Assembly (NCBI RefSeq): GCF_001701025.1
Contig: NZ_CP016793.1
Span: 9,933,873 to 9,997,872 of the forward strand
Reading direction: 5' to 3'
DNA length: 64,000 nt
Source: Lentzea guizhouensis
Lineage (GTDB): Bacteria > Actinomycetota > Actinomycetes > Mycobacteriales > Pseudonocardiaceae
Of this stretch, positions 1 to 59,497 are shown piece after piece. The notes beneath the pieces are model-generated. The model was not told the origin of the DNA and did not search any database. It worked only from the letters and a program-made list of their open reading frames with translations. The translations under genes and the position numbers were made by a program. Numbering within the stretch: the first letter of the stretch is position 1; each line of letters opens with the position of its first letter.

Positions 1-8192
<8,192 letters not shown>

Positions 8193-8216: not shown

Positions 8217-36033
<27,817 letters not shown>

Positions 36034-36069
36034 TGGTCCGTCCTCATTTCGTGCGGGCAAACACTGCTA

Positions 36070-39000
36070 CTACGAGAGGTCGAGCAACTCGTCGTCGATG
36101 ATGGAGAGGAGGTCTTCGACGGAGGCGGAGCGGAGATCGTCGTCCGAAGTGGACACGGGCTTCTTCAGGCGGCCCAGCAGCTTTTCCAGGCGCTCGCGGA
36201 TCGCGTCGTGGTCCTCCGGAGCCGCCGAGGCCACCGCCGCCTCGAAGCGCGTCAGCTCGGCCAGCGCCGAACCGTCGGACGAGGACAGGCCCTCGAGCAG
36301 GTGCAGGGCCACCAGACGCGGGGTCGGGTAGTCGAACACGAGGGCGGACGGCACCGGCAGGCCCGTCGCGGCCTTGAGGCGGTCACGCATCTCCACGGCG
36401 GTCAGCGAGTCGAAACCCTGGTCGCGGAACGCCTTCTCGGGGTGGATCGACTCGACACCCCGGTGTCCCAGCACGGCGGCGGCCTCGGTGCGGACCAGGT
36501 CCAGCAGCACGCGGCAGCGGTCGGGCTCGGACAGACCGGCGAGCTTCTCCTGCAACGCGACCTCGGCGCCGGAGGGGTCCGCGTCCGCCAGCGCGGCCAC
36601 GACCTCGGGGATCGCCGAGAACAGCGGTGACGGGCGAGAAGCGGTGAAACTCGGTGCGAAACGGGCCCAGTCGGTGTTCGTGACGGTCAGCACCGTCTCG
36701 CCGTCGGACACGGCCTGCACCAACGCGGTCAGCGCCAGCTCCGGGTCCATCGGCAGCACGCCGTGGCGGCGGAGCTGGTCGTAGGTCTGCGAATCGGTCG
36801 CCATGCCCGCTTCGGCCCAGGCACCCCACTGCAGCGAGGTCGCGACGAGGCCCTGGCCGCGACGGAACTGCGCCAGGCCGTCCAGGTAGGCGTTCGCGGT
36901 CGAGTAGGCCGGCTGGCCGCCGCTGCCCCACGCCGCCGCACCTGATGAGAACAGCACGAACGCGTCGAGGTTCCCGGTCAGCTCGTGCAGCCACCGCGCC
37001 GACAGCATCTTGGCGCGCAACAACTCCCCGAGCTGCTCTGCGGTCAAAGAAGCCAACGGCGCGTCACCGGCGTCGACCCCGGCGCAGTGCACAACGGCGG
37101 ACAGATCGGGGAACTGCGACAGCAGCTCCGCCACCGCAGCCCGGTCCGCCACGTCACACGCCTCGACGGAGACCTCGGCGCCGAAACCCTCCAGCTGCGC
37201 GACCAGGTGCTCGATGCCCGGTGTCTTGGGGCCACGCCGCGAGGTCAGCACGACGTGCGACGCACCACGAGCGGCAACGGCACGTGCCACGAACCCGCCC
37301 AGCGCCCCGGTCCCGCCGGTGATCAGCACGGTGCCCGAAGGCGTCCAGTCCTCGCCGTGCTCACCACGCGGTGCCGGCACCAGGCGCCGGGCGAACACGC
37401 CGTTGCCGCGCACCGCGATCTGGTCCTCGCCCAGCGAGCTCGTCAACGCCGCCTGCAACCCCTGCGCGATCTGCTTGTCGACACCGCCCGGCAGGTCGAC
37501 CAACCCGCCCCAGCGACGTGGCATCTCCAGCGCCGCCACCCGGCCCAGGCCCCACAGCGCGGCCTGCACCGGCGAGGTCACGATGTCGCCGTGCCCGGTC
37601 GACACGGCACCCCGCGTCACCGTCCACACCGGAGCGTCGATGTCGAGCGCCTGCAGCAGCTCCACCGTCCCGGACAAGGCCAACGGCACGTCATCCGAGT
37701 CGTCGGAGACCCCGAGCAACGACACCACACCCGTGAACTCACGCCCGGCGAAGGACGCCACCTCGTCGAACGGAACCGCGACCCCGCCGACGATCTCCAC
37801 GACGTCCCGCGTCCACGCGTCCTGCTCCCCCGGTGGCACCACGACCAGCCAGGACCCGCCGAACGCACCGGACGGCGACAACCGCGTCCACGACTCGCGG
37901 AACCGCCACGAATCCACAATGGACTGGGCACGCCGCCGGGTGCGCCACGACGACAACGCCGGCACGACCGCCGCCGCCACCTCCGGGTCGAGGTCCAGCA
38001 CCGACGCCAGCTCGTCGTTCTCCACCAGCTGCCAGAACGCCGCGTCCAACGGGTCCACCGCGCCGACCGCGACCTCGGGCTCCGGCCAGAACCGCGACCG
38101 CTGGAACGCGTACGTCGGCAGGTCCACCCGCTGCGCACCGGCACCTTCGAACAGCACCCGCCAGTCCACCGGCACACCCACGACGTGCAGCCGGGCCAGC
38201 GCCGACACCACCGACGCCTCCTCTGGCCGCTCCCGCCGCAGCACCGGCACCACCGCCGTGTCCAGCGGCACCGCACCGGTCTCCGTCATCTCCGCCACCA
38301 ACGCCGACAGCACGCCGTCCGGGCCGAGCTCCAGGAACGCCGACACCCCCTGCCGCCCCAACGCGCGCACGCCGTCGGAGAACCGCACTGCCTCACGCAC
38401 GTGCCGCACCCAGTACTCCGGCGAGGTCAGCTGCTCGCGCACGGCCAGCTGCCCGGTCACGTTCGACACGACCGGGATCTGCGGCTCCGCGAACTCAAGG
38501 TCCTCGACGACCGCGCGGAAGTCGTCCAGCATCGGGTTCATCAAGGGCGAGTGAAACGCATGGCTGACCCGGAGACGCTTAGTCTTGCGGTCGGCCAGGG
38601 CGGCGACCACCGCGTCGACCCCGGCGGCAGTCCCCGCGACCACCACCGACCGCGGCCCGTTCACCGCCGCGACCGAGACGTCGGATCCCAGCAGCGGCAG
38701 CACTTCCTCCTCGGTCGCCTGCACCGCCACCATCGCACCGCCGGCGGGCAGCGCCTGCATCAGCCGCGACCGCGCGTCCACCAACCGGCACGCGTCCGGC
38801 AGCGACAGCACCCCGGCCACGTGCGCGGCGACGATCTCCCCGATCGAGTGCCCGCCGACGAAGTCCGGCCGCACCCCGAAGGAGGATGCCAGGCGGAACA
38901 ACGCCACCTCGACCACGAACAACGCCGGCTGCGTGTACCGGGTCGCGTTCAGCGCCTCGGCGTCGTGACCCCACATCACCTCGCGCAACGCCGGGTCCAG

Positions 39001-40610
39001 GTGCTCCAGCACCGCGTCGAACGCCGCCGCGAACGCCGGGAACCGCTCGTACAGCTCACGTCCCATGCCCAGGCGTTGCGCCCCCTGCCCGGAGAACAGC
39101 ACCGCCAGCGGCCGCTCGGCCGCCACCCCGCGCGCGATCTCCGTGCCCTCCACGACGACCGCGCGGTGCTCCAGCTGCGTCCGCGTCGACACCAGCGACG
39201 CCGCCACGTCCAACGTCGGCGCCTGCACCGCCCGGAACCGCTCCAGCTGCGCGTCCAGCGCGGCGGACGTCCTCGCCGACACCACCCACGGCACCACCGA
39301 CAGCACGGTCGACGGTTCCTCCGGCGTGACCTCGACCTCCGGCGCCTCCTCCAGGATCACGTGCGCGTTCGTGCCGGACACACCGAAACCCGAGACCGCG
39401 GCACGGCGCTCACGGCCCGCCGAAGGCCACGGCTGTTCCGACGTCAGCAGCTCAACGCGACCGGCACCCCACTCGACGTGCGACGACGGCGAGGTGACGT
39501 GCAACGTGCGCGGCAACGTGCCGTGCTTCAGCGCCATCACCATCTTGATCACGCCCGCCACGCCCGCGGCCGCCTGCGTGTGCCCGAGGTTCGACTTCAC
39601 CGACCCCAGCCACAGCGGCACGTCCCGGTCCTGCCCGTAGGTCGCGAGCAACGCCTGCGCCTCGATCGGATCACCGAGGACGGTCCCGGTGCCGTGCGCC
39701 TCCACCGCGTCGACATCCGAGGTGGACAGACCGGCGGACGCAAGCGCTTGCTTGCCGGATCACGCGTTGCTGCGACGGACCGTTCGGCGCGGTCAGGCCG
39801 TTCGACGCGCCGTCCTGGTTGATCGCCGAGCCGCGCAGCACCGCGAGCACCGTGTGGCCGTTGCGCCGGGCATCGGACAACCGCTCCAGCACCACCAGAC
39901 CGGCGCCCTCGGACCAGCCGGTCCCGTCGGCCGAGTCGGAGAACGCCTTGCACCGCCCGTCCGCGGACAGCCCGCCCTGCCGCGAGAACTCCACGAACGT
40001 CTGCGGCGTCGACATGATCGTGACACCACCGGCCAGCGCCAGCGACGACTCACCGGAACGCAGCGACTGAGCCGCCCAGTGCAGGGCGACCAGGGAAGAG
40101 GAGCACGCGGTGTCCACGGTGACCGCCGGCCCCTGCAGCCCCAGGGTGTAGGCGACGCGACCGGACACCACACTGCCCGCCGTACCGGTCGTCCAGTACC
40201 CCTCGGTCCCCGCGGGCGCGTCCACCAGACCGGCGCCGTAGTCGTGGTACATCACGCCCGCGAACACACCGCCGTTGGTGCCCCGCAACGACGCCGGGTC
40301 GATCCCGGCTCTTTCCAGCGCCTCCCACGACACCTCCAGCAGCAGCCGCTGCTGCGGGTCCATCGCCAGCGCCTCCCGCGGCGAGATCCCGAAGAACTCC
40401 GCGTCGAAGTCGGCCGCGTCGTGCAGGAACCCGCCGGAGCGGGTGTGCGAGGCGCCGTCGAACAGCTTCTCCAGGTCCCAGTTGCGGTCCGCCGGGAACG
40501 GCGACACCACGTCCCCGCCCGCGAGCACCAGCCGCCACAGGTCCTCCGGCGACATCACGCCACCGGGGTAGCGGCAGGCCATGCCGACGATCGCGATCGG
40601 CTCGTCCGGC
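36070..40610 (-). other. PKS module 1: KS-AT(malonyl)-KR(A-type)-ACP plus C-terminal docking
   Basis: KS about 40605-39350 with TACSSS; its frame is broken by the CTTG duplication at 39747-39754, just before EAHGTGT. AT about 39310-38150 has GHSIGE and SHAFH (malonyl). No DH; a dimerisation-element-like segment (F-W-Q-L-V-E-N) precedes the KR (about 37900-36650). KR has TGGTGALGG, no LDD, and W-G-S-G-G-Q before the Tyr (A-type). ACP about 36490-36320 has GFDSL, followed by a docking region. Predicted result: a benzylic-side beta-hydroxyl next to the aryl starter. Confidence 0.9.
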
Positions 40611-43600
40611 ACCGCGCGCACCGCCTCCACCGGCGTCACCGCCGCGCGTTCGCCCAGCAGCTCCGCGCGCAGGTGCCGCGCCAGCACCACCGGCGTCGGG
40701 TAGTCGAACGCGACCGGCGCCGACAGGTGCAGCCCGGTCGCCGCGGTCAGCCGGTTGCGCAGGTCCACCGCCGTCACCGAGGTCAGCCCGAGCTCGCGGA
40801 ACGTCTTCTTCGCCTCCGCCCGCTCCCCGCCAGTCAGCCCCAGCACCCCCGCGACCTCGGTGCGCACCAGGTTCAGCAGGAAGATGTCCTGCTCCTCCGG
40901 CGACATCGCGACCAGCCGCTGCCGCAACGCCGACAGGTCCCGCTCGTCCGGTGTCGCCAAGCGCGCGGACACGTCGATCAGGCCGCGCAGCAACGCCGGG
41001 ACCTCGGTCGCCGACGTCTGCTCGCGCAACGCCGCGCTGTTGATCCGCATGATCACGGCCTGCGCCAGCCCCGCCGAGGTCGCCACGTCGAACATCGCCG
41101 CGAACTCGTGCGTCGACAGCTCCCCCACCCGCGAGGCCGTCGTCGGCGCGTCCGTCGACCCGACCGCGAGGAACGTCGCGGCCAGCTCCCGCTTGCGGCG
41201 GTAGCGGGCCAGCGCGTCCAGGAACGAGTTCGCCGCCGCCTGCTCACCGGAACCGACCAGCCCCAACGCGCCCGCGACCGTGCACAGCATGACGAACGCG
41301 TCCAGGTCACCGTTCTTGGTGAGCTGGTGCAGGTTCACCGCACCGTCCACAACGGACCGGAACACGTCGGCCCTGCGCGCGGGCAACGGGGTCGCCGGGT
41401 GCTCACCCTCGCTGTGCACGACGGCGGTGATCGGCCGCTTCAGCTTGCCGAGCACCTCCGCGAGCGCCGCCCGGTCCGTCACGTCGCACGCCGCGACCGC
41501 CACCTTGGCGCCGAGCTCGGTCAGCGCGGTCTCCAGCTGCGCGGTGGCGACGTCCGCCCGGCCGTTCCGGCTGATCAGCAGCAGGTGCCGGGCGCCGTAG
41601 GCGGCGACGAGGTGCTTGGTCAGCGCTGCGCCCATAGTGCCGTCCGCGCCGGCCACCACGACCGTGCGCCTCGGGTCGATCCGCAGCACCTCGTCGCTGT
41701 CGACCGACGCCGACACGCGCTTGAGCCGCGGGATCAGCGCGATGCCCGACCGGATCGCCAGCTGCGGTTCGCCGGCGGCCACCGCTCGCGGCAGCACCCC
41801 GGTCGACGGTGGCTGGTCGTCGATGTCGATCAGCGTGAACCGGTTCGGGTACTCGACCTGCAACGACCGCAGCAGCCCCCACACCGGCGCGTGCACGAGG
41901 TCGCGCACGTCCTCGACGCCCGCCGCAACGGCGTTCCGCGTCAGCACGACCAGGCGTGAGTGGGCGAACCAGGCGTCGTTCACCCACGTCCGCAGCACGT
42001 CACCGACCTTGCGCAACGCGTCCTGCGCGGCCGTGGTGAGCTTGCCGCCGGTGTCCATGTCGTCCGGGCAGCACAGCACCGCCACGTCCGGTGCCGTCTC
42101 ACCGTCCACGACGGACACGTGCAGCGCGGCCGCGTCGAGGTAGGTGGCGACGTGCAGACCGGCCGACACCAGCGCCGTCGTCAGGCCGAACACGTCCGGG
42201 CCGACGACCGCCCACCGCTTGGCCAGCTCCAGCGACGTCGTGCGGACCGACGGCATCGGCGCCCAGTCCATCCGCAGCAGCGACTCGTGCTGCCCACCGC
42301 TCGCCGCGCGCAACCGGGCCGGCCGGTCCAGCAGCACGTGCCGGGTGATCTTGCCCGAGGTCGTGCGCGGGATGTGGTCGATCTCGTACAGCTCTTCCGG
42401 CACCTTGAAGTTCGACAGCTGCTCGCGGCAGGTGTCGTAGAGGCGCACCGGGTCGAGGCCCTGCTTGCCGGGCACGACGAACGCGATCGGCACCTCGCCG
42501 AGGATGTCGTGCGGCTTGCCGACCACCGCGGCGTCGGCGACACCGGGGACCTTGAGCAGCACCTCCTCCACCTCGCCGGGGTGGATGTTCTCGCCGCCGC
42601 GGATGATCAGCTCCTTCACCCGGCCGGTGATCGTGAGGTAGCCGTAGAGGTCCCGGCGCGCGAGGTCACCGGTGCGGTACCAGCCCTGCGGCATCGCCTG
42701 CGCCGTCGCCTCCGGCTGGTTGTGGTAGCCGACCATGAGGCTCGGGCCGCGCACCCACACCTCGCCCTCGGCCTCCACCCCGACGTCCACGCCGGTGTCC
42801 GGGTCGACCAGCCGCACCGACAGCCCCGGCACCGGCAGCCCGACCGAACCCGGAACCCTGGTGCCCTGCAACCAGTTCACCGCGATCAGGCCGCACGTCT
42901 CGGTGCTGCCGTACCCGTCCAGCAGCGGCACGCCGAACAGCGCCTCGAACTCCACCCGCACCGCCGGAGGGCAGGCGGCGCCGGCCGTCATGCACCGGAC
43001 CAGGCCGCCCGGCTTCACCTCACGGGTCCGCGCGACGTCCAGGAGGTGGTGGTACATGGCGGGAACACCGCACATGAAGGTGTAGCTGTCGCTCTCCAGT
43101 GCGCTCAGCACCTCGTCGGCGGCGAACCCGTCCAGGATCCGCGCGGTCGCTCCGACAGCGGTCACACCTACTACACAGAGGACGTGCGCGAGGGAGTGGT
43201 GCAGCGGCAACGGCCACAGCACCTCGTCCTCGCCGTTGAGCCCGATGACCGGGGCGTAACAGGCGGCGACCGACCACAGGCAGCTGCGCTGGGTCGACAG
43301 CACACCCTTGGGCTTGCCGGTGGTGCCGGAGGTGTAGAGCATGAACGCGACGTCGTCGAGCCCCTGGTCGTCGCGCGCGGGAACGGCCGGGTCCCGGGCC
43401 GTCAACTCCTGGTACGACAGGAGTGCGCCGCCACGCGGGACGGGCTCGTCGCCGGTGACGAGCACCGTGAGATAGGGACGACCGGGCAGCAGCTTGCGGA
43501 CCTGGTCGAGGTGCGCGGGATCGGTGATCACCACGCGCGCGCCGCTGTCGTCCAGCACGTAGGAGAGCTCGGCGTCGGCGGAGTGCGGGTTGAACGGCAC

Positions 43601-43855
43601 CGCGACCGCGTTCGCACGCGTGACACCGAGGTAGGACTCGATGCACTCGACGCTGTTGTTCAGGTAGATCAGCGCCCGGTCGCCGGGCTGCAGCCGGGCC
43701 TCGGCCAGGTGCCCGCCGAGCCGCCGGGTGCGCCGCTCCAGCTCCGCGTACGTGACCGCGCGCCGCGCGTCGGCGAACGCGACCTTCTCCGGCGTCGTCG
43801 CGGCGTGGTGGCGCAGCAGGTCGGACAACGGCCGGATGAGCTCGGTTCGAAACAT
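36070..43855 (-). CDS. Modular PKS: CoL-KR(dead)-ACP loading module plus module 1 (one 4-bp frameshift)
   Basis: First PKS of the series, divergent from the chorismatase gene. It starts at ATG 43855 and ends with TAG at 36070-36072. It encodes an adenylate-forming starter ligase, an inactive KR, an ACP, then KS-AT-KR-ACP and a C-terminal docking region ending in LLDLS. Length 7786 nt is one more than a multiple of three because CTTG is duplicated at 39747-39754. Removing the copy restores KS frame into VEAHGTGT and gives about 2,593 aa. The architecture matches shikimate-derived carboxylate-primed systems (rapamycin, FK506, rifamycin families). Inferred role: activates and loads 3-hydroxybenzoate and performs the first extension. 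Confidence 0.96.
40640..43855 (-). other. PKS loading module: CoA-ligase-like A domain, inactive KR, ACP
   Basis: The A (CoL) domain, about residues 1-535, has the YTSGTTGKPKG core, the GYGSTE motif, YRTGDL, a GRVKELIIRGGENIHPG hinge and the TSGK motif carrying the catalytic Lys. No CoA transfer is needed because an ACP follows. A KR-like region (about 42200-41000) has TADGTMG-like glycine motif remnants (A-D-G-T-M-G), and the expected N-Y-A-A-A-N reads E-Q-A-A-A-N, so the catalytic Tyr is lost. The ACP (about 40900-40660) has the phosphopantetheine Ser in L-T-S-V rather than D-S-L. Predicted substrate: an aryl carboxylate, most likely 3-hydroxybenzoate given the neighbouring chorismatase. 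Confidence 0.88.
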
Positions 43856-44121
43856 CCCGACGGCGCTCCCTATTTGCTGACGGCATGGCGTGCACCTGCG
43901 CCGATGCTAGCCTCGGCCTCACCGGCCCAGTAAGTAGGAAATCCCCTAGCACCCCCCTATGTCCCCCCTATCTCGTCACCCGGAAGCTCATTGTTCTCGC
44001 GGGGCAGTTTTGCGGAGTCGTGCCGGTGCTAATCTTTCACCACCGGCCCGGAAGAGAAGCCGAGAAGAATTACCAGGTTTAACTCCGCAAATGATTCACC
44101 AACTCCTCGGAGGGCATTCCG
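43856..44121. promoter_or_regulatory. Divergent promoter region between PKS loading gene and chorismatase operon
   Basis: A 266-bp gene-free stretch separating the PKS series (minus) from the starter-unit operon (plus). It should carry both promoters. It contains three phased C-rich repeats (43943-43970) next to an imperfect palindrome around GGAAATCC (about 43934-43949), and a CGGAGG ribosome site about 8 nt before the chorismatase ATG. The LAL regulator at 48123-50867 is the natural candidate to bind here; this is inference. Confidence 0.6.
43943..43970. promoter_or_regulatory. Three CCCCTA/CCCCCCTA repeats with 11-bp period (candidate activator site)
   Basis: CCCCTA ends at 43948, CCCCCCTA at 43959 and CCCCCCTA at 43970. 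The exact 11-bp spacing places them on one DNA face. Such phased direct repeats are typical of activator binding upstream of PKS genes. No binding data are available here. Confidence 0.4.
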
Positions 44122-45144
44122 ATGACGCAGGCGCAGCAGAAGGTGAACCTTCCCGGCTCCGTGTTCACCAGCCTGACCGAAGTCAGCCACGTCGCGGCGA
44201 GCGAAAACGTTCTCGGCGTCATCAACTACACCACCGGGTGCGCCGACCCGCGTGTGGAGAACGGCCTTCTGACCCTTGACATCCACATGGCGGCTGTGGA
44301 CACCGAAGCGTTCGCGGAGATCTGGACGACCACGGGTCCGGTCGAGACGGGCGAGCACCACGGCGTCTTTTACGCCCACGACGGCGAGTACCTCCTCGTG
44401 GCCGGCCGCATCGCGCCGACCGGCCGCTACACCGAGGACACCCGCGCGGCCTACGTCGCGGCGCTCGACCTGATGGACACGCTCGGCTACAAGAACTGCT
44501 TCCGCATGTGGAACTTCCTCAACGACATCAACGGCGACAACGCCGAGGGCCTCGAGATCTACCGGGACTTCTGCAAGGGCCGCGCGGAGGCGTTCGAGCT
44601 CTTCCACTTCGGTGACGCCGAGGTCCCGAGCGCGACCGGAATCGGCTCGCAGGGCGGCGGGATCGCGTTCTACTTCCTCGCCTCCCGCTCCGCCGCGCTC
44701 ACCTCGGTGGAGAACTCGAAGCAGATGGCCGCCTACCACTACCCGCGGCAGTACGGCCCCCGCCCGCCCAAGTTCGCGCGGGCCACCTACCTCTCCTCCA
44801 CGCACACCGACCGCAGGTCAGGGCAGATCTACGTGGCCGGCACCGCCAGCATCCGCGGGCACGAGACGCTGCACGAGGGCGACATCGCCGCCCAGGTGGA
44901 GTTGTCGCTCGACAACATCGAGCACCTCATCTCCGACGAGAACCTGGCCGACTACGAGATCACGCGGGGCAACTCCCTGCTCGACCTCGACAACATCAAG
45001 GTCTACGTCCGCCACCGCTCCGACATCCCGACCGTGCGCGCGATGTGCGAGGAGCGCTTCTCCCCGAACGCCCGCGTCCAGTACCTGAACGTCGACGTCT
45101 GCCGCGCCGATCTCCTCGTGGAGATTGAGGGCATCGTCGCCTGA
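44122..45144 (+). CDS. Chorismatase, probably 3-hydroxybenzoate synthase (Hyg5-like)
   Basis: 340-aa protein of the FkbO/Hyg5/RapK chorismatase family, which splits chorismate into pyruvate plus a ring acid. ATG 44122 follows a GGAGG site. Family features visible are the N-terminal T-G-C-A-D-P segment, R-M-W-N-F near residues 128-132, the G-T-A-S-I-R-G-H loop at 240-247 and the C-terminal L-L-V-E-I-E-G segment. From memory of published work, Hyg5-type enzymes (3-hydroxybenzoate) are distinguished by Gly240 and Cys327 where FkbO types (dihydroxycyclohexadiene carboxylate) have Ala and Gln. This protein has G at 240 and C at 327, so 3-hydroxybenzoate is favoured. It is first gene of a three-gene operon with DAHP synthase and a flavin hydroxylase, and diverges from the PKS loading gene that would use its product. 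Confidence 0.9.
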   Translation: MTQAQQKVNLPGSVFTSLTEVSHVAASENVLGVINYTTGCADPRVENGLLTLDIHMAAVDTEAFAEIWTTTGPVETGEHHGVFYAHDGEYLLVAGRIAPTGRYTEDTRAAYVAALDLMDTLGYKNCFRMWNFLNDINGDNAEGLEIYRDFCKGRAEAFELFHFGDAEVPSATGIGSQGGGIAFYFLASRSAALTSVENSKQMAAYHYPRQYGPRPPKFARATYLSSTHTDRRSGQIYVAGTASIRGHETLHEGDIAAQVELSLDNIEHLISDENLADYEITRGNSLLDLDNIKVYVRHRSDIPTVRAMCEERFSPNARVQYLNVDVCRADLLVEIEGIVA

Positions 45145-45178
45145 ACCGCCCGGCCGAACCAGAACCAGGAGCGAGACA

Positions 45179-46387
45179 ATGCCTCAGACGGTGAAGCTGA
45201 ACGAGTTCACGTTCACCCGCGCGTCCGCACCGTGGACGACCCTGCCGGCGCAGCAGCAGCCGCACTGGCACGACCACCCCGACTACGACCTGATCGAAGC
45301 CGAACTGTCCGGTGCGCTGCCCCTGGTCGCACATTCCGAAATCCGCGAGGCCAAACGTGCTCTCGGTCTCGCCGCCCTCGGTGAGGCGCGGGTCCTGCAG
45401 CTCGGCGACTGCGCGGAGTCCTTTTCCGACGCCGACCCGCTGACAACTTCCCGAAAGGTGCGCAACGTCGCCAGGATCGCTTCCCGGCTGGCGGACCGCA
45501 CGGGCCAGCAGGTGGCACGTTTCGGACGGATGGCGGGCCAGTACGCGAAGCCCCGTTCGAGCAACTTCGAAACGGTCGGCGGGATCGAGCTGCCGTCATT
45601 CCGCGGCGAGCTCGTCAATTCGTTCGAAGCGGAGCTCTCCGCCCGTCGGCACGACCCCGAACGAATGCTGCAGGCCTATGACGCCTCGGCCGCCGTCATC
45701 CGAGAAGTGCGCGCCCATTGGACGGGAAGCGCCGAGGAACTCGACGGCGGCCCGTGGGTGGCGCACGAGGCATTGGTGCTGGATTACGAGAACGCGCTGA
45801 TTCGCACCGACGACCGCACCGGCGAGCAGTTCCTCACCTCGACGCACTTCCCGTGGATCGGCGAGCGCACCCGCCAGCTCGACCACGCGCACGTGTCGAT
45901 GTTCGCCGCGATCGCGAACCCGATCGGCGTGAAGGTGGGCCCGACGGCGGACCCCGAGACCGTCGTGCGCCTGTGCCAGCTCCTCGACCCGCACCACACG
46001 CCGGGCCGGCTGACGCTGATCGTCCGCATGGGCCGCGAGGACATCCACGTGGCACTGGCCCCGATCGTCCGCGCCGTGCGGCGCGCGGGCCACCCGGTCG
46101 TCTGGATCTCGGATCCCATGCACGGCAACACGGTCAAGGCCGAGTGTGGGCAAAAGACTCGATTTGTCACTCATATCATCGAGGAGGCCACGGCGTTCCG
46201 GCACATCCTGGAGACCGAGGGCGCCCACCCGGCAGGCTTGCACCTGGAAGTGGCGGCGTCCGACGTGACGGAGTGCGTCGGCGGAACCGTGCCCGACGAG
46301 TCGGCCCTCTCCGAGCGCTACGAGACCCTCTGCGACCCCCGCCTGAACCCCGACCAGGCACTCGGAGTGATCGACTCGGTGTTCTGA
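45179..46387 (+). CDS. Class II (plant-type) DAHP synthase
   Basis: 402-aa enzyme condensing phosphoenolpyruvate and erythrose-4-phosphate to 3-deoxy-D-arabino-heptulosonate-7-phosphate, the entry step to chorismate. I chose ATG 45179 because AGGAGC lies about 8 nt upstream; an in-frame upstream extension to 45125 lacks a good site. Family motifs seen are the metal-site Cys in LGDCAESF, the R-M-A-G-Q-Y-A-K-P-R-S active-site block near residue 118, R-L-T-L-I-V-R-M-G and W-I-S-D-P-M-H-G-N-T. It is shorter than housekeeping mycobacterial class II enzymes (about 460 aa), as is common for cluster-borne copies that lack regulatory extensions. It begins 34 bp after the chorismatase stop. Inferred role: boosts chorismate supply for the starter unit. 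Confidence 0.94.
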   Translation: MPQTVKLNEFTFTRASAPWTTLPAQQQPHWHDHPDYDLIEAELSGALPLVAHSEIREAKRALGLAALGEARVLQLGDCAESFSDADPLTTSRKVRNVARIASRLADRTGQQVARFGRMAGQYAKPRSSNFETVGGIELPSFRGELVNSFEAELSARRHDPERMLQAYDASAAVIREVRAHWTGSAEELDGGPWVAHEALVLDYENALIRTDDRTGEQFLTSTHFPWIGERTRQLDHAHVSMFAAIANPIGVKVGPTADPETVVRLCQLLDPHHTPGRLTLIVRMGREDIHVALAPIVRAVRRAGHPVVWISDPMHGNTVKAECGQKTRFVTHIIEEATAFRHILETEGAHPAGLHLEVAASDVTECVGGTVPDESALSERYETLCDPRLNPDQALGVIDSVF

Positions 46388-46409
46388 CCCTTCGCAGACA
46401 GGGAAACAG

Positions 46410-48014
46410 ATGACGTCTCCGCACCAGGCCGGCCGAGCCGCAACGACCACCGCGGACGTCGCGGTGGTCGGCTGCGGCCCGGTCGGCCTCGTCCTGTCCA
46501 TCCTGCTGGCCCACAAGGGATGGCGGGTCGTCATCCTGGAGAAGTACCGCGGCCAGTACCCCTTCCCCCGCGTGGTCGCCTTCGACGGCGAAACGGCCCG
46601 CTCCTTCGCCTCGGCCGGCATCGGCGCCGACCTGATGGAACTCGGCGAACCCCTGGGCCAGTACATGTTCCAGAACGCCGAGGGCCGCGAGCTCTTCTCC
46701 TTCGAGGCCCCGTACGAACCGGGCCGCGACGGCTGGCCCATCGCCACCGTCATGCACCAGCCCACCTTCGAACGGGCCCTGCGCGACCACGTCACCACCC
46801 TGCCGAACATCACCACCCTGTTCGGCCACAAGGTCGAGTCCATCACCGACCACGGCACCCACGTCTCCCTGACCGCCCCGGGCCCCGACCACGACGGCGC
46901 CGTCACCGCCTCGTGGGTCATCGGCTGCGACGGCGCGAACAGCTTCGTCCGCGACGCCATGGGCACCCGCATGATCGACCTGAACTTCAAGCACGACTGG
47001 CTCCTGGTGGACGTCGTCTTCCACGAGAAGCGCGCCTTCCGCCCCAACGACGTCCAGGTCTGCGACCCGGCCCGCCCCACCACCATCGTCGCCTCCGGCA
47101 GGGGCCACCGCCGCTGGGAGTTCATGCGCCTCCCGGGCGAGTCGATCGAAGAGCTGTCCACAGTGGAACGCATGTGGGAGCTCCTCCGCCCCTACGACGT
47201 CACCCCCGACAACGCCGACCTGACCCGCAACATCGTCTACACCTTCCAAGCCGCCCTGGCCGACAAGTGGCGCAACGGCCGCCTCCTGCTCGCCGGCGAC
47301 TCGGCCCACCTCATGCCTCCCTTCGCAGGCCAAGGCATGTGCTCCGGCATCCGCGACGCCGCGAACCTGGCCTGGAAGCTCGACCTGGTCCTGCGCGACA
47401 TCGCCGATGACACCCTCCTGGACGCCTACCAGGCCGAACGCTCCCTCCAGGTGCGCCACACGATCGAGATGTCCATCGAGGTCGGCAAGATCGTCTCGGA
47501 GCTCGACCCGGTCGCCGCAGCCCGCCGCGACGCGTTCCTGATCGCGATGCAGGCGAAGCCGGAGGGTGTCGACCTGGCTCCGTCGGCTTACGCACTCGAG
47601 GACGGAATCGTCCGCCGGACCGGCGGTGAGGTCGTGTTGCCGCACGGCGAGCTCTCACCCCAGGGCTTGGTGGCCCGGGGTGCTGAGCGCGACCGGTTCG
47701 ACGAGGTCGTGGGACGTGGCTGGCAGCTGATCACGACGCTCGACCCGTACGAGGCGCTGGGCGAGGACGAGCTGGAGTTCCTCAAAGTCCTGGGAGCACA
47801 GCTCGTCCGGGTCATGCCCGCCGGCATCCCACCGAAGATCGCGCGGGCGCACGAGGTCGTGGACGTCGAGCGCCTGTACCTGCCTTGGCTGGCGGGCCAC
47901 AAGAAGGTGGCGGCCCTGGTGCGGCCCGACTACTACGTGTTCGGCTTCGCACAGGACCGCGCGGACCTGCCGGCGTTGGTGCAGGAGCTGAAGGCCCAGC
48001 TGCCGCTGGTCTGA
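46410..48014 (+). CDS. FAD-dependent aromatic hydroxylase (MhpA/Rif-Orf19-like)
   Basis: 534-aa class A flavoprotein monooxygenase. It has an N-terminal FAD-binding GCGPVG motif followed by an ILEKY acidic end, the W-V-I-G-C-D-G-A DG motif near residue 173, and the GD motif L-L-L-A-G-D-S-A-H near residue 295 followed by PPFAGQG. A C-terminal thioredoxin-like extension puts it in the phenol hydroxylase/MhpA subgroup (3-(3-hydroxyphenyl)propionate hydroxylase). It is the last gene of the starter operon, 22 bp after DAHP synthase. Inference: ortho- or para-hydroxylation of the 3-hydroxyphenyl group, either free or on the polyketide, giving a catechol or hydroquinone. A rifamycin-like role at the aryl ring is a reasonable model. 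The exact substrate cannot be read from sequence. Confidence 0.88.
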   Translation: MTSPHQAGRAATTTADVAVVGCGPVGLVLSILLAHKGWRVVILEKYRGQYPFPRVVAFDGETARSFASAGIGADLMELGEPLGQYMFQNAEGRELFSFEAPYEPGRDGWPIATVMHQPTFERALRDHVTTLPNITTLFGHKVESITDHGTHVSLTAPGPDHDGAVTASWVIGCDGANSFVRDAMGTRMIDLNFKHDWLLVDVVFHEKRAFRPNDVQVCDPARPTTIVASGRGHRRWEFMRLPGESIEELSTVERMWELLRPYDVTPDNADLTRNIVYTFQAALADKWRNGRLLLAGDSAHLMPPFAGQGMCSGIRDAANLAWKLDLVLRDIADDTLLDAYQAERSLQVRHTIEMSIEVGKIVSELDPVAAARRDAFLIAMQAKPEGVDLAPSAYALEDGIVRRTGGEVVLPHGELSPQGLVARGAERDRFDEVVGRGWQLITTLDPYEALGEDELEFLKVLGAQLVRVMPAGIPPKIARAHEVVDVERLYLPWLAGHKKVAALVRPDYYVFGFAQDRADLPALVQELKAQLPLV

Positions 48015-50867: not shown

Positions 50868-51150
50868 GATGATGTACCTCTCGCCAGGAAGCCGCCGGCC
50901 CGCAGCGCGATGGTGGTGATGACGAGACAACCACCGCGGTCCCCCAGGTGCGCGGGTACGACGAGTCGACCACGACTCTCGCAGGCGGAGCACCGCCCGT
51001 GAAATCGATACGCGCCAGTTCTAGGTTTTTCCTTGAAGACCCGGTGCTTGCCAACACTAGGTCTTCTTCCGGAGAACACTGTCACCCCAGGACACACCCC
51101 TACGCCCTCCGGCACGCTCGCTGTCACCAGTGATCTGGAGGGTGAAGTCC
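50868..51150. promoter_or_regulatory. Divergent promoter region, LAL regulator / glycosyltransferase operon
   Basis: A 283-bp gene-free stretch. Two CTAGGT direct repeats (51021-51026 and 51057-51062), each followed by a pyrimidine-rich run, lie 36 bp apart between the genes and might be operators. A GGAGGG ribosome site at 51137-51142 precedes the glycosyltransferase ATG. Nothing else was recognised. Confidence 0.5.
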
Positions 51151-52518
51151 ATGAGCCAGCGGCCGATCCTGTTCGTCAGCCTGCCGGAGAGCGGGCTGCT
51201 GAACCCCATGCTCGTGCTCGCGGAGGAGCTGTCGCGGCGTGGCGTGGAGGACCTGTGGTTCGCGACCGACGACAAGGGGCGGGACGAGGTCGAGGCGGCG
51301 GCGGTCGGGTCGCCGATCCGGTTCGTGTCCCTCGGTGACGTGGTCCCGGAGATGTCGTCGGTGACCTGGCCGGACGACGTCTACGCGGAGGTGACGCAGC
51401 GGTCGCGGTTCAAGGCGCGCAAGGCCGTCATCGCGCAGACCTTCCGGCCGTCGCTGCGGATTCCCAAGTACCGCGAGCTCGAAGCGGCCGTGGAGAACAT
51501 CAAGCCCGCGCTGATGGTCGTCGAGTCGATGTGCATGTTCGGCTACGAGCTCGCCATCACCAAGGGCATCCCGTACGTGGTCAGCAACCCGTTCGTGCCG
51601 TCGAACCTGGTCACCTCCGTCATCCCGATCGGCCCCTCCTACACCCCGAAGGACTTCCCCCGCCCGCACACCGGTCTGCCCGCGGCCATGACGTGGCGGC
51701 AGCGGTGGACCAACCGGCTGTTCGGCTGGCGCACGCTCGCGACCGCGTTCACCAAGCAGCACAAGGAACGCAACGCCGAGAACGACCGCGTTGTCGCCGA
51801 GCTCGGCATCTCCCCGAAGACCCGCGGCCAGTTCGCGCGGGTCGAGAACTCCGAACTGGTGCTGTGCTACTCCATCCCGGAGATGGACTACCCGTTCGAC
51901 GTCCCGGAGAAGATCCGCACGGTCGGCGCGCTCGTGCCGCCGCTGCCCCAGGCGGAGCGCGGTGAGCTGGACGAGTGGCTGGACGCGCAGAAGTCAGTCG
52001 TCTACATGGGTTTCGGCACCATCACCCGGCTGACGCGCGAGCAGGTCGCGGCGTTCGTCGAGGTCGCCCGCCGGCTCGACTGCTCGGTGCTGTGGAAGCT
52101 GCCGCGCGACCAGCAGGTGTTCCTGCCGGCCGAGCTGCCGGCGAACCTGCGGATCGAGACGTGGGTGCCCTCGCAGCTCGACGTGCTGGCGCACCCGAAC
52201 GTGCACGTGTTCTTCACGCACGCGGGCGGAAACGCTTACACGGAAAGCATCTACTTCGGCAAGCCGATGGTGTCGCGGCCGCTGTGGGTCGACTGCTACG
52301 ACCAGGCCGTGCGCGCGGAGAGCTTCGGCGTCGGGCTCACGCTGGACCGGCCGCACACCGTCGACCCGGACGACGTCGTCGACAAGCTCACCCGCGTGCT
52401 GACCGAGCCGGGGTTCCGCGAGAACGCCGAGCGGCTCGCGGCCCTGCAGCACGCGGCGGGCGGCCGCAAGACCGCGGCCGACCTGGTTCTCTCCCTGCCC
52501 GCACTCACCGCGAAGTGA
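51151..52518 (+). CDS. GT1-family (macrolide-type) glycosyltransferase
   Basis: 455-aa UDP/TDP-sugar-dependent glycosyltransferase of the GT-B fold. ATG 51151 follows GGAGGG; an in-frame GTG at 51130 is upstream of that site and less likely. The N-terminal half begins with a beta strand and a G-L-L-N-P-M loop typical of acceptor-binding domains. The C-terminal donor domain shows V-Y-M-G-F-G-T, W-V-P-S-Q-L-D-V-L and T-H-A-G-G-N-A-Y-T-E-S with a following D-Q-A-V-R-A-E. It shares a four-base overlap or near overlap with the next gene, forming an operon with an aminotransferase, P450 and ferredoxin. Inferred role: attaches an amino-deoxysugar to the polyketide. Acceptor and sugar cannot be read from sequence. 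Confidence 0.92.
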   Translation: MSQRPILFVSLPESGLLNPMLVLAEELSRRGVEDLWFATDDKGRDEVEAAAVGSPIRFVSLGDVVPEMSSVTWPDDVYAEVTQRSRFKARKAVIAQTFRPSLRIPKYRELEAAVENIKPALMVVESMCMFGYELAITKGIPYVVSNPFVPSNLVTSVIPIGPSYTPKDFPRPHTGLPAAMTWRQRWTNRLFGWRTLATAFTKQHKERNAENDRVVAELGISPKTRGQFARVENSELVLCYSIPEMDYPFDVPEKIRTVGALVPPLPQAERGELDEWLDAQKSVVYMGFGTITRLTREQVAAFVEVARRLDCSVLWKLPRDQQVFLPAELPANLRIETWVPSQLDVLAHPNVHVFFTHAGGNAYTESIYFGKPMVSRPLWVDCYDQAVRAESFGVGLTLDRPHTVDPDDVVDKLTRVLTEPGFRENAERLAALQHAAGGRKTAADLVLSLPALTAK

Positions 52519-52526
52519 GCGTCAGC

Positions 52527-53582
52527 ATGAGCTACCGCTATCCCGTCTCGATGCCCTCGTTGCGCGGCAACGAGCTCGAGTACACGACGAAGGCCGTGAC
52601 GGACGGCTGGATCTCCTCGCAGGGCCCGTACGTGCCTCGGTTCGAGGAAGCTTTCGCCGCCTACAACGGTGTCCAGCACGGCGTTGCGTGCTCGTCCGGC
52701 ACGACGGCATTGACGCTCGCGTTGCGCGCGTTGGGGATCGGGCCGGGCGACGAGGTGATCGTGCCGGAGTTCACGATGATCGCCTCGGCGTGGGCCGTGA
52801 CCTACACGGGCGCGACCCCGGTGTTCGTGGACTGCGGTGACGACCTGAACATCGACGTGCGCAAGATCGAGGAGAAGATCACCCCGCGCACCAAGGTGAT
52901 CATGCCGGTGCACGTCTACGGCCGGCGTTGCGACATGGACGCGGTCCTGGAGCTGGCCTACGAGTACAACCTGCGGGTCGTCGAGGACTCGGCCGAAGCC
53001 CACGGCGTCAAGCCGACCGGGGACATCGCGGCGTTCTCGCTGTTCGCCAACAAGATCATCACCTCCGGCGAGGGCGGCATCTGCCTGACGAACGACCCGC
53101 ACCTGGCGCGGCAGATGGCGCACCTGCGCGGGATGGCGTTCACCCGCGACCACAGCTTCCTGCACAAGAAGCTCGCCTACAACTTCCGGATGACGAACCT
53201 GCAGGCGGCGGTCGCGCTGGCGCAGACCGAACGCCTCGACGAGATCATCGCGACGCGCGCGCGGATCGAGAAGCGGTACGACGAAGGCCTTCGAGGCATC
53301 AAGGGCATCACGCTCATGCCGCCGCGGGACGTGTTGTGGATGTACGACCTGCGCGCCGAACGCCGGGACGAGCTGCGGGCGTTCCTGGCGGAGCAGGGCA
53401 TCGAGACGCGGCTGTTCTTCAAGCCGATGAGCCGCCAGCCCGGCTACCTCGACCCGGTGTGGCCGACGCTGAACGCCCACCGCTTCGCCGAGGACGGCCT
53501 GTACCTCCCCACCCACGCCGAGCTCACCGAGGACGACCAGGACTACGTCGTGGGCCAGGTCCGCCGGTTCTACGAGGGATGA
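52527..53582 (+). CDS. DegT/DnrJ/EryC1-family sugar aminotransferase
   Basis: 351-aa PLP-dependent aminotransferase of the perosamine synthetase/DesI-like group, acting on 4-keto (less likely 3-keto) NDP-deoxysugars. Start is ATG 52527; an in-frame GTG at 52515, overlapping the previous stop, is an alternative. Visible motifs are G-Y/G-P-Y-V-P-x-F-E near residue 36, C-S-S-G-T-T-A-L (cofactor phosphate), D-S-A-E-A-H-G, and F-A-N-K-I-I-T-S-G-E-G-G, where Lys forms the PLP imine. The F-x-N-K-x-I-T-x-G-E-G-G arrangement resembles 4-aminotransferases such as perosamine synthase. It lies 1 bp before the P450 start, so translation is coupled. No NDP-sugar synthase, 4,6-dehydratase or N-methyltransferase lies in the window; these must be elsewhere. 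Confidence 0.9.
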   Translation: MSYRYPVSMPSLRGNELEYTTKAVTDGWISSQGPYVPRFEEAFAAYNGVQHGVACSSGTTALTLALRALGIGPGDEVIVPEFTMIASAWAVTYTGATPVFVDCGDDLNIDVRKIEEKITPRTKVIMPVHVYGRRCDMDAVLELAYEYNLRVVEDSAEAHGVKPTGDIAAFSLFANKIITSGEGGICLTNDPHLARQMAHLRGMAFTRDHSFLHKKLAYNFRMTNLQAAVALAQTERLDEIIATRARIEKRYDEGLRGIKGITLMPPRDVLWMYDLRAERRDELRAFLAEQGIETRLFFKPMSRQPGYLDPVWPTLNAHRFAEDGLYLPTHAELTEDDQDYVVGQVRRFYEG

Positions 53583-53583
53583 G

Positions 53584-54759
53584 ATGACGACCACCGACGC
53601 AGACCTTGTCCCGTTCCTGCTGCGCCGTCCCGGCGCGTCGTTCCCGCCACCGGAGTACGCGGGCTTCCGCGACAGACCGGGTCTGGTGAAGGCAGCGCTG
53701 CCCTCGGGCGGCACGGTGTGGCTGGTCACCCGGCACGAGGAGGTCCGCGCGGTCCTCACCGACCCGCGGATCAGCTCCAACCCGACCCACGAGGGCTTCC
53801 CTCGCCCGTCACGCACCGTGGGCGCGCCGTCCGCGGACGACGTGCCGGGCTGGTTCGTGTCGCTGGACCCGCCGGACCACAACAAGTACCGCAAGGCGCT
53901 GATCCCCGAGTTCACCGTGCGCCGCATCCGGTCGTTGCGCCCGGCGGTCGAGGAGATCGTCGACCGCACCATCGACCAGATGCTGGTCAAGGGCAACACC
54001 GCCGACCTCGTCGAGGACTTCTCGCTGTCGGTGCCGTCGCTGGTGATCTCGTCGCTGCTGGGCGTGCCGAAGATCGACCGCGACTTCTTCGAGGAGAAGA
54101 CCAAGGTCCTGGTCACGCTGACCTCGACCGACGAGGAACGCGACAAGGCCTCCGAGCACCTGCTGCGCTACATCAACCGCCTGATCGCGATCAAGGCGAA
54201 GCGGCCGGGCGACGACCTGATCTCCAAGCTGGTGCAGGGGGAGATCCTGACGCAGCAGGAGGTGTCCGGCATCTCGATGCTGCTGCTGATCGCGGGCCAC
54301 GAGACGACGGCGAACAACATCTCGCTGGGCGTGGTGACGCTGTTGCAGGAGAAGCAGTGGATCGACGACGAACGCACGGTCGAGGAGCTGCTGCGCTACC
54401 ACTCCGTGGCCGACGTGGTGGCGTTGCGCGTGGCCATCGAGGACGTCGAGATCGGCGGCCAGCTGGTGCGCAAGGGCGAGGGCATCGTCCCCCTGGTGGC
54501 CGGCGCGAACCACGACCCGTCGATGTTCGAACGCCCGCACCAGTTCGACCCGGCCCGCTCGGCCACCGGGCACGTGGCGTTCGGCTACGGCGTGCACCAG
54601 TGCCTGGGCCAGAACCTGGTGCGGCTGGAGATGGACGTGGCCTACCACAAGCTGTTCCAGCGCATCCCGACGCTGGAGGTCGCGGTGCCGTTGGAGGAGC
54701 TGCAGTTCAAGTACGACGGAGTCCTCTTCGGACTCCACGCGCTGCCCGTGCGCTGGTGA
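53584..54759 (+). CDS. Cytochrome P450 monooxygenase
   Basis: 391-aa soluble bacterial P450. ATG 53584 follows the aminotransferase stop by 1 bp. The I-helix A-G-H-E-T-T motif (near residue 239), the E-E-L-L-R form of ExxR, and the haem-binding F-G-Y-G-V-H-Q-C-L-G-Q with the Cys ligand near residue 339 are all present, so the enzyme should be competent for normal O2 activation. The N-terminal P-P-x-E-Y and D-P-P-D-H-N-K-Y-R-K stretch resembles macrolide-tailoring CYP105/CYP107 enzymes. A ferredoxin gene follows 16 bp downstream and probably supplies electrons. Inferred role: hydroxylation or epoxidation of the macrolide or sugar. Confidence 0.95.
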   Translation: MTTTDADLVPFLLRRPGASFPPPEYAGFRDRPGLVKAALPSGGTVWLVTRHEEVRAVLTDPRISSNPTHEGFPRPSRTVGAPSADDVPGWFVSLDPPDHNKYRKALIPEFTVRRIRSLRPAVEEIVDRTIDQMLVKGNTADLVEDFSLSVPSLVISSLLGVPKIDRDFFEEKTKVLVTLTSTDEERDKASEHLLRYINRLIAIKAKRPGDDLISKLVQGEILTQQEVSGISMLLLIAGHETTANNISLGVVTLLQEKQWIDDERTVEELLRYHSVADVVALRVAIEDVEIGGQLVRKGEGIVPLVAGANHDPSMFERPHQFDPARSATGHVAFGYGVHQCLGQNLVRLEMDVAYHKLFQRIPTLEVAVPLEELQFKYDGVLFGLHALPVRW

Positions 54760-54775: not shown

Positions 54776-54970
54776 ATGGCTCAGATCAGTGTGGACACCG
54801 GGAAGTGCATCGGCTCGGCGCAGTGCGTGCTAGCGGCGCCGGAGGTGTTCGACCAGGACGACGACGGGTTCGTGACGGTGCTGGACGCGAGCCCGTCGGG
54901 TGAGGCGGCGGCGAGCGCGCGCACCGCGCAGGGCATCTGCCCTGCGCAGGCGATCAGCGTGCAGGGCTGA
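54776..54970 (+). CDS. Small [3Fe-4S]-type ferredoxin
   Basis: 64-aa ferredoxin of the class usually paired with actinomycete P450s. It has C-I-G-S-A-Q-C near residues 11-17 and C-P-A-Q-A-I near the C-terminus; the usual second Cys of a four-Cys cluster is replaced by Ala, as in 3Fe-4S ferredoxins. A GGAGG site lies 7-12 nt before ATG 54776. It is the last gene of the glycosyltransferase-aminotransferase-P450 operon and probably serves the upstream P450, and perhaps the distant one at 58274-59458, which has no ferredoxin beside it. Confidence 0.93.
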   Translation: MAQISVDTGKCIGSAQCVLAAPEVFDQDDDGFVTVLDASPSGEAAASARTAQGICPAQAISVQG

Positions 54971-54973
54971 GGA

Positions 54974-55011
54974 GGTGCCGAGGGCCGTGGTCATTCATGG
55001 CCCTCGGCACC
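54974..55011. terminator. Hairpin terminator between ferredoxin and convergent NTPase gene
   Basis: GGTGCCGAGGGCC (54974-54986) pairs perfectly with GGCCCTCGGCACC (54999-55011), 13 bp with a 12-nt loop. The stop codon of the minus-strand gene (54991-54993) lies inside the loop, so its last codons form part of the hairpin. It can end transcription from both sides. Confidence 0.8.
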
Positions 55012-58273: not shown

Positions 58274-59458
58274 TCACCAGGTGAGCGGGAACTTCTCCAG
58301 TCCGCCCGCGAGCCGGCCGCCGGGGTGCGACTCCAGTTCGGACTCTCGAACCGCGAGCTTGAGCCCTGGCAGGCGTTCGAACAGCGCCGTGTAGGCGACG
58401 GCGAGGATGATCCGCACGAGCGGGGCGCCCGTGCAGTGCCGCATGCCGTGACCGAACGTGAAGTGGTGGTTGGGCGTGCGGGTGACGTCGAAGTCGTGCG
58501 GGTTGTCGAACGCGCGCGGGTCGAAGTTGGCGAGCGAGAAGTCGAGCATCACCAGGTCGCCCTCGCGGATGGTGACCCCGCCCACGTCGATGTCGGTGCT
58601 GGCGTAGCGGGGCAGCACGGGTGAGCTGATCGTGGCGCGCATCACCTCGTCGACGGCGCGGGCCATGATCTCCGGGTCGTTCATGGCCTTCTCGCGCTGC
58701 TCGGGGTTGCGCAGGAACAGCAGCACGCCGAAGTCGAGGTGGCTGGCGAGGCCCGCGAGGCCGGTGAACAGCAGCGTGACGACGTGCAGGCCGATCTCGT
58801 CGTTGGTCAGGCCGGTCTCGATGAACCGGGAGATGACGTCGTCACCGAGGTCGCCGCGCCGGCGTTCGCCGATCTCGGCGGCGTAGCCGAACAGGGGTTC
58901 CATGCCGGTCTCGGCGTGGTCCTGGTCGGAGGCGCCGACGGTGTCCATGAGGTCGAGGAGCCGGCGGCGGTCCTGCTCGGGGATGCCGACCATGTCGCAC
59001 AGCGCCTGCTGCGAGTAGTCCATCGAGTAGGCCTCGTGCAGGTCGACCGGCGGGCCCGCGGCGATGATGGCGTCGAGCTTGGCGTGCGCGATGGCCTCGA
59101 CGCGTTCGCGGCGTTCGATGACGCGGCGGGCGGCGAAGCTCTTGGTGTAGAGGACGCGTTTCTTCTCGTGGCGCTCCTTCTCGACCTCGATGTCGTCGGC
59201 GGTGACGAGCATGTCGAGCATGGGGTTGCGGAAGTAGCGCGGCGCGTTGGCAGGGTCCTTGTGGCTGCGGCCGAGGCGGTTGTCCTGCAGCAGCTGCTTG
59301 ACCTCGGCGTGGCGGGTGACGAGCCAGCCCTCGTCGCCCGCGGGCGTCCGGATGCGGCACACCGGCGCCTGCTCCTGCAGCTGCAAGCGCAGTTCGCTGA
59401 ACGTCAGGATCGACGGCAGCTCGACCCCGACCAGGGGAAGTTCCTGCGATGTGGTCAT
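58274..59458 (-). CDS. Cytochrome P450 with unusual I-helix, downstream of PKS
   Basis: 394-aa P450. ATG 59458 follows GGAAGG by 6-7 nt; a longer frame to 59488 is less likely. Haem motif F-G-H-G-M-R-H-C-T-G near the C-terminus and E-V-M-R (ExxR) are intact. The I-helix, normally A/G-G-x-E/D-T, reads A-G-L-A-S: the acidic residue is Ala and the Thr is Ser. Such loss is known in some macrolide P450s (EryF lacks the Thr) that use substrate-assisted oxygen activation. It starts 39 bp after the PKS stop on the same strand, so it is likely cotranscribed with the PKS and tailors the same polyketide. No ferredoxin lies beside it. Confidence 0.93.
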   Translation of the reverse strand: MTTSQELPLVGVELPSILTFSELRLQLQEQAPVCRIRTPAGDEGWLVTRHAEVKQLLQDNRLGRSHKDPANAPRYFRNPMLDMLVTADDIEVEKERHEKKRVLYTKSFAARRVIERRERVEAIAHAKLDAIIAAGPPVDLHEAYSMDYSQQALCDMVGIPEQDRRRLLDLMDTVGASDQDHAETGMEPLFGYAAEIGERRRGDLGDDVISRFIETGLTNDEIGLHVVTLLFTGLAGLASHLDFGVLLFLRNPEQREKAMNDPEIMARAVDEVMRATISSPVLPRYASTDIDVGGVTIREGDLVMLDFSLANFDPRAFDNPHDFDVTRTPNHHFTFGHGMRHCTGAPLVRIILAVAYTALFERLPGLKLAVRESELESHPGGRLAGGLEKFPLTW

Positions 59459-59497
59459 GGACGCCTTCCAGTGTTCGGTGGGTTTCACGATGTGCGG

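Follow-up and report, generated by a model that had tools for sequence, protein, structure and literature searches.

We analysed a stretch of 64,000 nucleotides from Lentzea guizhouensis (contig NZ_CP016793.1, positions 9,933,873 to 9,997,872; hereafter the window), which forms the final 64 kb of a 9,997,872-bp contig. Three plus-strand genes, encoding a chorismatase, a type II 3-deoxy-D-arabino-heptulosonate 7-phosphate (DAHP) synthase and an MhpA-type flavin hydroxylase, face the loading protein of a modular polyketide synthase (PKS) on the minus strand (Table 1). The original prediction had described them as a complete supply and loading system for a 3-hydroxybenzoate (3-HBA) starter, and all four genes were found where it had placed them; the start of the DAHP synthase was moved to a probable ATG at 45179, the listed open reading frame (ORF) opening with TTG at 45125. 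Strand and spacing suggest that the three plus-strand genes are cotranscribed. The gene order around the chorismatase is found again in Streptomyces pacificus and in five Lentzea loci whose flanks are long, so that the arrangement is more than chance; chorismatase homologues are 86-91% identical in seven named Lentzea genomes. Judged from its sequence, the window very probably makes and loads the 3-HBA starter of a 24-module aromatic heptaene macrolide, a degree of confidence that refers to starter supply and loading.

The chorismatase scored 440 bits against TIGR04444 (cut-off 325) and 408 bits against the Hyg5 structure 5ag3, compared with 287 bits against FkbO (4bps). Its residues G240 and C327 had been proposed as a Hyg5 signature to be checked by alignment, and they indeed align with the same-numbered residues of Hyg5, at which FkbO carries alanine. 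The available part of PMC7170507 gives Gly-164, Gly-231 and Cys-318 of Nat-hyg5 as residues of the CH-II class of chorismatases; Gly-164 corresponds to G173 in the window, and the enzyme carries G173, G240, C327 and E334. Among 33 aligned chorismatases, the window's own included, G240, C327 and E334 were present in all, and G173 in 30, with valine in the other three; G240 and C327 mark the Hyg5 class and do not discriminate inside this set. The enzyme is classified by these features as Hyg5-type (CH-II) and would convert chorismate to 3-HBA and pyruvate. An FkbO-type activity, which would yield the dihydroxycyclohexadiene carboxylate starter known from FK506 and rapamycin, could appeal to the common family and to the match with FkbO, but it is extremely improbable given the two residues at the FkbO alanine positions and the higher Hyg5 score.

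The loading PKS is a single ORF in the intact cluster of a related genome (G014). In the window it is divided into two ORFs (43855-39671 and 39705-36070) by a frame change in the first ketosynthase (KS). Its residues 1-523 form an acyl-CoA-ligase-type domain, in agreement with the predicted carboxylate-loading function, followed by a ketoreductase (KR)-like domain, an acyl carrier protein (ACP) and one KS-acyltransferase (AT)-KR-ACP module; a CoA-ligase loading domain thus adjoins the predicted 3-HBA synthase. The catalytic Tyr of the KR-like domain is replaced in all 15 aligned polyene-type loading modules and retained in both of two more distant ones, and the domain between ligase and loading ACP would be catalytically dead. 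With our own motif mapping to the usual ten positions, the ligase pocket of the window reads HSHMMAGGLK. It is HSHM(L/M)AGGLK in 13 of 13 3-HBA-type rows, nine of the ten places being constant and the fifth being M in the window and L in the other 12. The four rows from clusters primed with 3-amino-5-hydroxybenzoate (AHBA) all read HSHL(L/M)GCGSK, differing from the 3-HBA type at four places. One genome (G345), whose loading domain was not retrieved, was omitted from this count. The ligase domain would adenylate 3-HBA and hand it to the loading ACP.

The DAHP synthase, probably a shikimate-flux enzyme as the original prediction had it, reached 415 bits against the NCBIfam equivalog model, below the cut-off of 614.7, and its top match in the PDB was a short enzyme of 405 residues. 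In the DAHP synthase tree, 3-HBA-type and AHBA-type polyene rows share one side of a branch (99/95), the opposite side holding the enzymes from eight further chorismatase loci; the row of G170 groups next to the AHBA rows, weakly supported (80/71). The enzyme would raise the shikimate flux.

The assembly line was read in G014, where 24 modules (M1 to M24) were counted. A dehydratase (DH) profile, built from nine modules of this cluster so that M8, M12, M20 and M23 are independent of it, gave 415-500 bits in each of the seven consecutive modules M8-M14, all with a KR motif; the independent scores within this run were 441 bits (M8) and 415 bits (M12). M20 scored 265 bits and M23 gave two pieces of 91 and 97 bits. 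M22 contains DH, enoylreductase and KR, M18 lacks a KR and M24 ends in a thioesterase (TE). This architecture is, as far as domains tell, that of an aromatic heptaene macrolide. A scan for AT domains found 13 modules left of the chorismatase in the window's genome, and the record holds orthologues of M8-M13 from the consecutive DH-KR run. The polyene tailoring set (carboxyl-forming P450, ferredoxin, aminosugar synthase and glycosyltransferase) is present by family and synteny, bearing out the aminosugar genes claimed earlier, and the arrangement of glycosyltransferase, aminotransferase, P450 and ferredoxin corresponds to the amphDI-DII-N-M order of polyene genes. The window cluster is therefore probably that of an aminosugar-bearing antifungal-type polyene primed with 3-HBA, which narrows the aryl macrolide glycoside of the original prediction to an aromatic heptaene of the polyene type. 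Modules 1-24 would build an aryl-capped heptaene released by the TE, both visible in G014 and not in the window record. P450 and ferredoxin would oxidise a methyl branch, and the glycosyltransferase would attach mycosamine or perosamine, a choice that sequence alone does not decide (PMC8944477).

Clusters primed with 3-HBA have been predicted in L. waywayandensis and L. xinjiangensis, with 24 modules, an all-trans heptaene and mycosamine or perosamine (Caffrey, 2022, PMC8944477). Their loci (L011 and L013) are orthologous to the window, with the same gene order and chorismatases of 91% and 89% identity, respectively, and the predicted number of modules equals the number counted in G014. The cluster therefore belongs to a type that is already published, contrary to the earlier statement that its product could not be matched to a known compound. 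The published Lentzea clusters are said there to carry AmphDIII; none was found in the window's genome. What goes beyond the published main text is the conserved ring hydroxylase and the kinship to AHBA-primed clusters: the main text of PMC8944477, without its supplements, does not mention DAHP, flavin, quinone or catechol, and the best-ranked results of our literature searches held no text linking these hydroxylases or a starter swap to polyenes. According to the available part of PMC5220287, aromatic heptaenes are the most active subgroup of antifungal polyenes.

Other systems share parts of this scheme. Flavatericin is produced by Saccharopolyspora flava, whose enzyme formed 3-HBA in vitro (PMC8944477); its cluster and that of S. 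dendranthemae have a Hyg5 chorismatase, CoA-ligase loading and a heptaene like the window. In the four genomes of this Saccharopolyspora type (G345, G346, G349 and G354) the hydroxylase is 62-63% identical to that of the window, and the ligase pocket could be read in three. Unlike in the window, neither a DAHP synthase nor an aminotransferase was matched in the stretches read there; G170 likewise gave no aminotransferase match near its chorismatase. Chorismatase-derived 3-HBA also primes cuevaene and, with Nat-hyg5, unantimycin, as described in the accessible parts of PMC3999817 and PMC7170507; these are not glycosylated polyene macrolides, and the likeness is one of description, not of cluster sequence. 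For the Pseudonocardia Ps2 polyene, AHBA was assumed in the part of PMC5183585 at hand, while PMC8944477 assigned 3-HBA.

The hydroxylase, predicted as MhpA-type, exceeded the cut-off of the subfamily model NF004829 (390 bits) by far and stayed below those of four same-named equivalog models. Among 390 genomes of the family, 33 had matches at E 1e-140 or better, 17 of them at 59-100% identity and the next at 52%. Thirteen of the 17 also have a chorismatase above cut-off (eight Lentzea including the window, G170 and the four Saccharopolyspora-type genomes), so that the clade occurs in 13 of the 50 chorismatase-bearing genomes of the family. As a check independent of the hydroxylase, a search of these 50 with the window's glycosyltransferase gave 21 matches at E 1e-60 or better, and those with at least 68% identity came from the same 13; the next (G295, 65%) has glycosyltransferase and chorismatase on different contigs and no hydroxylase match. 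The remaining 37 chorismatase genomes, Lentzea G001 and G003 among them, are without this hydroxylase clade, and three of them (G027, G169 and G384) have a homologue of 50-51% identity that is either distant from the chorismatase or on a separate contig. Outside the genus, 15 of 20 fetched loci had a chorismatase without a polyene glycosyltransferase; flanks were taken for 20 of the 46 places with an above-cut-off chorismatase there, and the other 26 were covered by the genome-wide hydroxylase and glycosyltransferase searches only. As these wide scans score few candidates per genome (3 to 5 for chorismatase and hydroxylase), misses are possible. Two loci were omitted before counting, L009 from the hydroxylase count (its contig stops behind the DAHP synthase) and L016 (the same place as G014).

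Hydroxylase and chorismatase genes lie within a few kb of each other in eight of the 13 genomes (seven Lentzea and G170) and on different contigs in Lentzea G020. We had considered that Saccharopolyspora-type clusters lack the hydroxylase, an idea that was dropped when it was found 70-73 kb from the chorismatase on the same contig in two of the four genomes (G346 and G349) and on a different contig in the other two (G345 and G354). In G346, which was read through, the hydroxylase adjoins the loading PKS, unlike in the window, and the chorismatase stands past the far end of the PKS block.

Chorismatases were also seen in other surroundings. Three further Lentzea PKS loci (L110, L111 and L112 in G001, G003 and G020) have a Hyg5-type one of 50-52% identity and the pocket HSHTLACGMK; no hydroxylase of the window clade occurred in the 20 kb read, and they represent a different chorismatase-linked line. 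The chorismatases with Val-173 (L069, L070 and L075) adjoin a type II DAHP synthase and a CoA-ligase PKS, and the loading KR of L069 and L070 retains its Tyr. On plasmid pBCI1-1 of an ant-associated Pseudonocardia strain (L135), a chorismatase lies near genes for a DAHP synthase and a type II dehydroquinase. On two Streptomyces plasmids (L136 and L137), a Hyg5-family chorismatase adjoins an AMP-binding protein and a tyrosine 2,3-aminomutase. A gene for an enediyne chromoprotein is close by, and together they suggest a 3-HBA-like unit in an enediyne.

The other four of the 17 hydroxylase genomes (G110, G134, G161 and G165) gave no chorismatase match. Their layout is that of the window, with loading PKS, DAHP synthase, hydroxylase, LAL regulator, glycosyltransferase, aminotransferase, P450s and TE module, and they resemble the AHBA-primed Amycolatopsis clusters of the A. 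albispora type, going by the available text of PMC8944477. An AHBA synthase was found in all four; at E 1e-60, none of the 13 genomes with a chorismatase gave a match. The AHBA synthase of G110 scored 601 bits against 1b9h; next to it lie an AHBA-associated phosphatase (TIGR01454, 353 bits, cut-off 247) and a type II dehydroquinase, together with dehydroquinate-synthase-like, ROK-kinase-like and Gfo/Idh-like proteins, these last three identified below cut-off or through a structure match alone. The chorismatase fills the gap between loading PKS and DAHP synthase in Lentzea, S. pacificus and G170, whereas these two adjoin in the AHBA clusters. The ligase tree does not show the 3-HBA rows as a single branch, and one clade was not rejected (p-AU 0.57).

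Judging by layout, dead loading KR and trees, we read the two kinds of cluster as one lineage with a changed starter. They have one layout and differ in their starter genes and four pocket residues, which suggests a natural starter swap in either direction. It is possible, and we propose it tentatively, that one chorismatase gene takes the place of the whole AHBA operon along with a few pocket changes, and that both branches kept the ring hydroxylase and hence a dihydroxylated aryl head. If so, the products would be redox-active aromatic polyenes with a hydroquinone or catechol, possibly quinone, head; such macrolides were not described in the literature searched. Assembly lines differing in starter genes and a few pocket residues would also offer a blueprint for starter engineering, predicting the pocket changes from AHBA to 3-HBA. 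In view of the conserved hydroxylase, predicted polyene structures may miss one ring oxygen, which matters for mass-based searches.

Where the hydroxylase acts can be argued in two ways. Rif-Orf19 of rifamycin and Cxm19 of chaxamycin are described in the available part of PMC4551226 as 3-(3-hydroxyphenyl)propionate hydroxylases of AHBA ansamycins, in which the hydroxylation leads to the naphthalene ring; they share the family name with the window's enzyme and are likened to it by description, not by sequence. By gene context, the window likewise has an MhpA-type flavin hydroxylase in an m-hydroxyaryl-starter cluster. Because one clade serves two starters with a common m-hydroxyaryl ring, we somewhat favor an action after loading, in which the enzyme would add a second oxygen to the carrier-bound ring or to that of the polyene, as is said of Rif-Orf19. 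Several points weigh against this. Free small phenols gave the family its name, and target and position are not readable from the sequence. The hydroxylase of Lentzea, S. pacificus and G170 adjoins the supply genes in a tight array with chorismatase and DAHP synthase, which is equally compatible with free 3-HBA as the substrate. Each starter type also has its own hydroxylase branch in the tree (100/98 for 3-HBA and 100/99 for AHBA, with a self-chosen outgroup), and the enzymes may be starter-specialised. The gene array, the separate branches and the family name, taken from free m-hydroxyphenyl acids, speak for a hydroxylase that acts first on the free acid, in which case the loaded unit would be a dihydroxybenzoate (gentisate, 2,3- or 3,4-dihydroxybenzoate); nevertheless, with the same clade serving AHBA-primed clusters and the G346 hydroxylase next to the loading PKS and about 72 kb away from the chorismatase, we hold this to be quite unlikely.

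The window copy itself may be incomplete or broken, and here, too, some observations weigh against the proposed product; a further caution is that the pocket letters depend on our mapping. The right-hand block has 11 modules in G014 and in G022, and here only M23, the KS of which is cut by the contig end; modules 14-22 were not found in the window's genome record. The terminal module-TE (M24) gene of G014 is absent between 59472 and 59493, a remnant of its last codons stays between the P450 and M23, and no long repeat was seen by eye at the junction. The C-terminal TE piece matched only a paralogous locus at 6.49 Mb. Relative to the open proteins of G014, the window has eight PKS frame changes (1 + 6 + 1 over three proteins, in matches above 78% identity). 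The best match to GDP-mannose 4,6-dehydratase (gmd/AmphDIII) was 75 bits in the window's genome against 396-401 bits in six of six relatives searched, which themselves are below the family cut-off of 415 bits; the gene may lie in an assembly gap. The word complete in the original prediction thus holds for supply and loading and not for the assembly line. Frame changes, missing TE gene and the low gmd score would suit a decaying remnant with supply genes but no working assembly line, yet we regard decay as unlikely. Outside the PKS, the annotated genes of the region have open frames, frequent frame changes in long PKS ORFs are also compatible with sequencing error, and the contig stops inside the M23 KS and does not start with PKS, so that a gap in the assembly may account for much of the loss. 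At the contig end the chromosome probably remains unclosed, and assembly gap plus sequencing error would explain most of the missing parts and frame changes.

Three further readings were rejected. A real circular join at the contig end, which an ORF crosses in frame, does not fit with PKS homology to G014 reaching base 64000 and 39 residues at the contig start that are not PKS-like. The TE-like match at 6.4875 Mb lies in a locus of 73-80% nucleotide identity to G014, against 81-89% for the window, and was not accepted as the terminal module. The PKS locus at 9.39-9.43 Mb matches G014 at 66-76% identity (82% for one KS) and without collinearity, and it was not accepted as modules 14-22. These are the two other multi-module PKS loci of the genome. 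The AT scan gave 42 matches genome-wide, many of them in other places with one or a few modules each, and these were compared only in part.

Table 1. Features of the window, with positions counted from its first nucleotide.
Feature	Position	Strand	Evidence or remark
PKS modules 8 and 9 (9 crosses the left edge)	1..8192	-	first of seven consecutive DH-KR modules
PKS modules 2-7, several frames here; single 9159-aa protein in G014	8220..36060	-	
Loading PKS part 2: remainder of KS1, malonyl-type AT, KR, ACP, C-terminal end	36070..39705	-	
Loading PKS part 1: CoA-ligase domain, KR-like domain without catalytic Tyr, ACP, KS1 start	39671..43855	-	
Hyg5-type (CH-II) chorismatase, 340 aa	44122..45144	+	TIGR04444, 5ag3, class residues G173/G240/C327/E334
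Short type II DAHP synthase, 402 aa	45179..46387	+	PF01474 449 bits, PDB 6bmc 338 bits, tree 99/95
MhpA-type flavin hydroxylase, 534 aa, proposed m-hydroxyaryl-head ring hydroxylase	46410..48014	+	NF004829 590 bits, genome counts, tree
LAL/LuxR-type regulator, 956 aa	48123..50993	-	PF13191 and PF00196; syntenic
Polyene-type glycosyltransferase, AmphDI position	51130..52518	+	PF00201; 66-87% identical across related clusters
DegT aminotransferase, putative mycosamine or perosamine synthase, AmphDII position	52527..53582	+	PF01041 342 bits
Cytochrome P450, AmphN position, would oxidise methyl to carboxyl	53584..54759	+	PF00067; 72-89% across related clusters
Ferredoxin, 64 aa, AmphM position	54776..54970	+	PF13370
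LysR-type substrate-binding protein, 236 aa	57146..57856	-	PF03466 84 bits; 82% in G014
Second cytochrome P450, no substrate prediction	58274..59488	-	PF00067; 88% in G014
PKS module 23, final one in the 6684-aa protein of G014; KS cut at contig end	59498..64000	-	

Modules 10-13 lie to the left of the window. A second PKS locus of the genome (L094-L095, G000:C1:6487544-6511274) is paralogous to polyene modules 20-24 with TE, at 73-80% nucleotide identity. A lone PKS module (KS-AT-DH-like-ACP; L003:1118-4963) was seen 21-25 kb from the contig start. Within the window, about 2.2 kb at 54991-57097 have no counterpart in G014 and contain two minus-strand ORFs, the larger of which (503 aa) had no Pfam match and by eye resembles an AAA-type ATPase.

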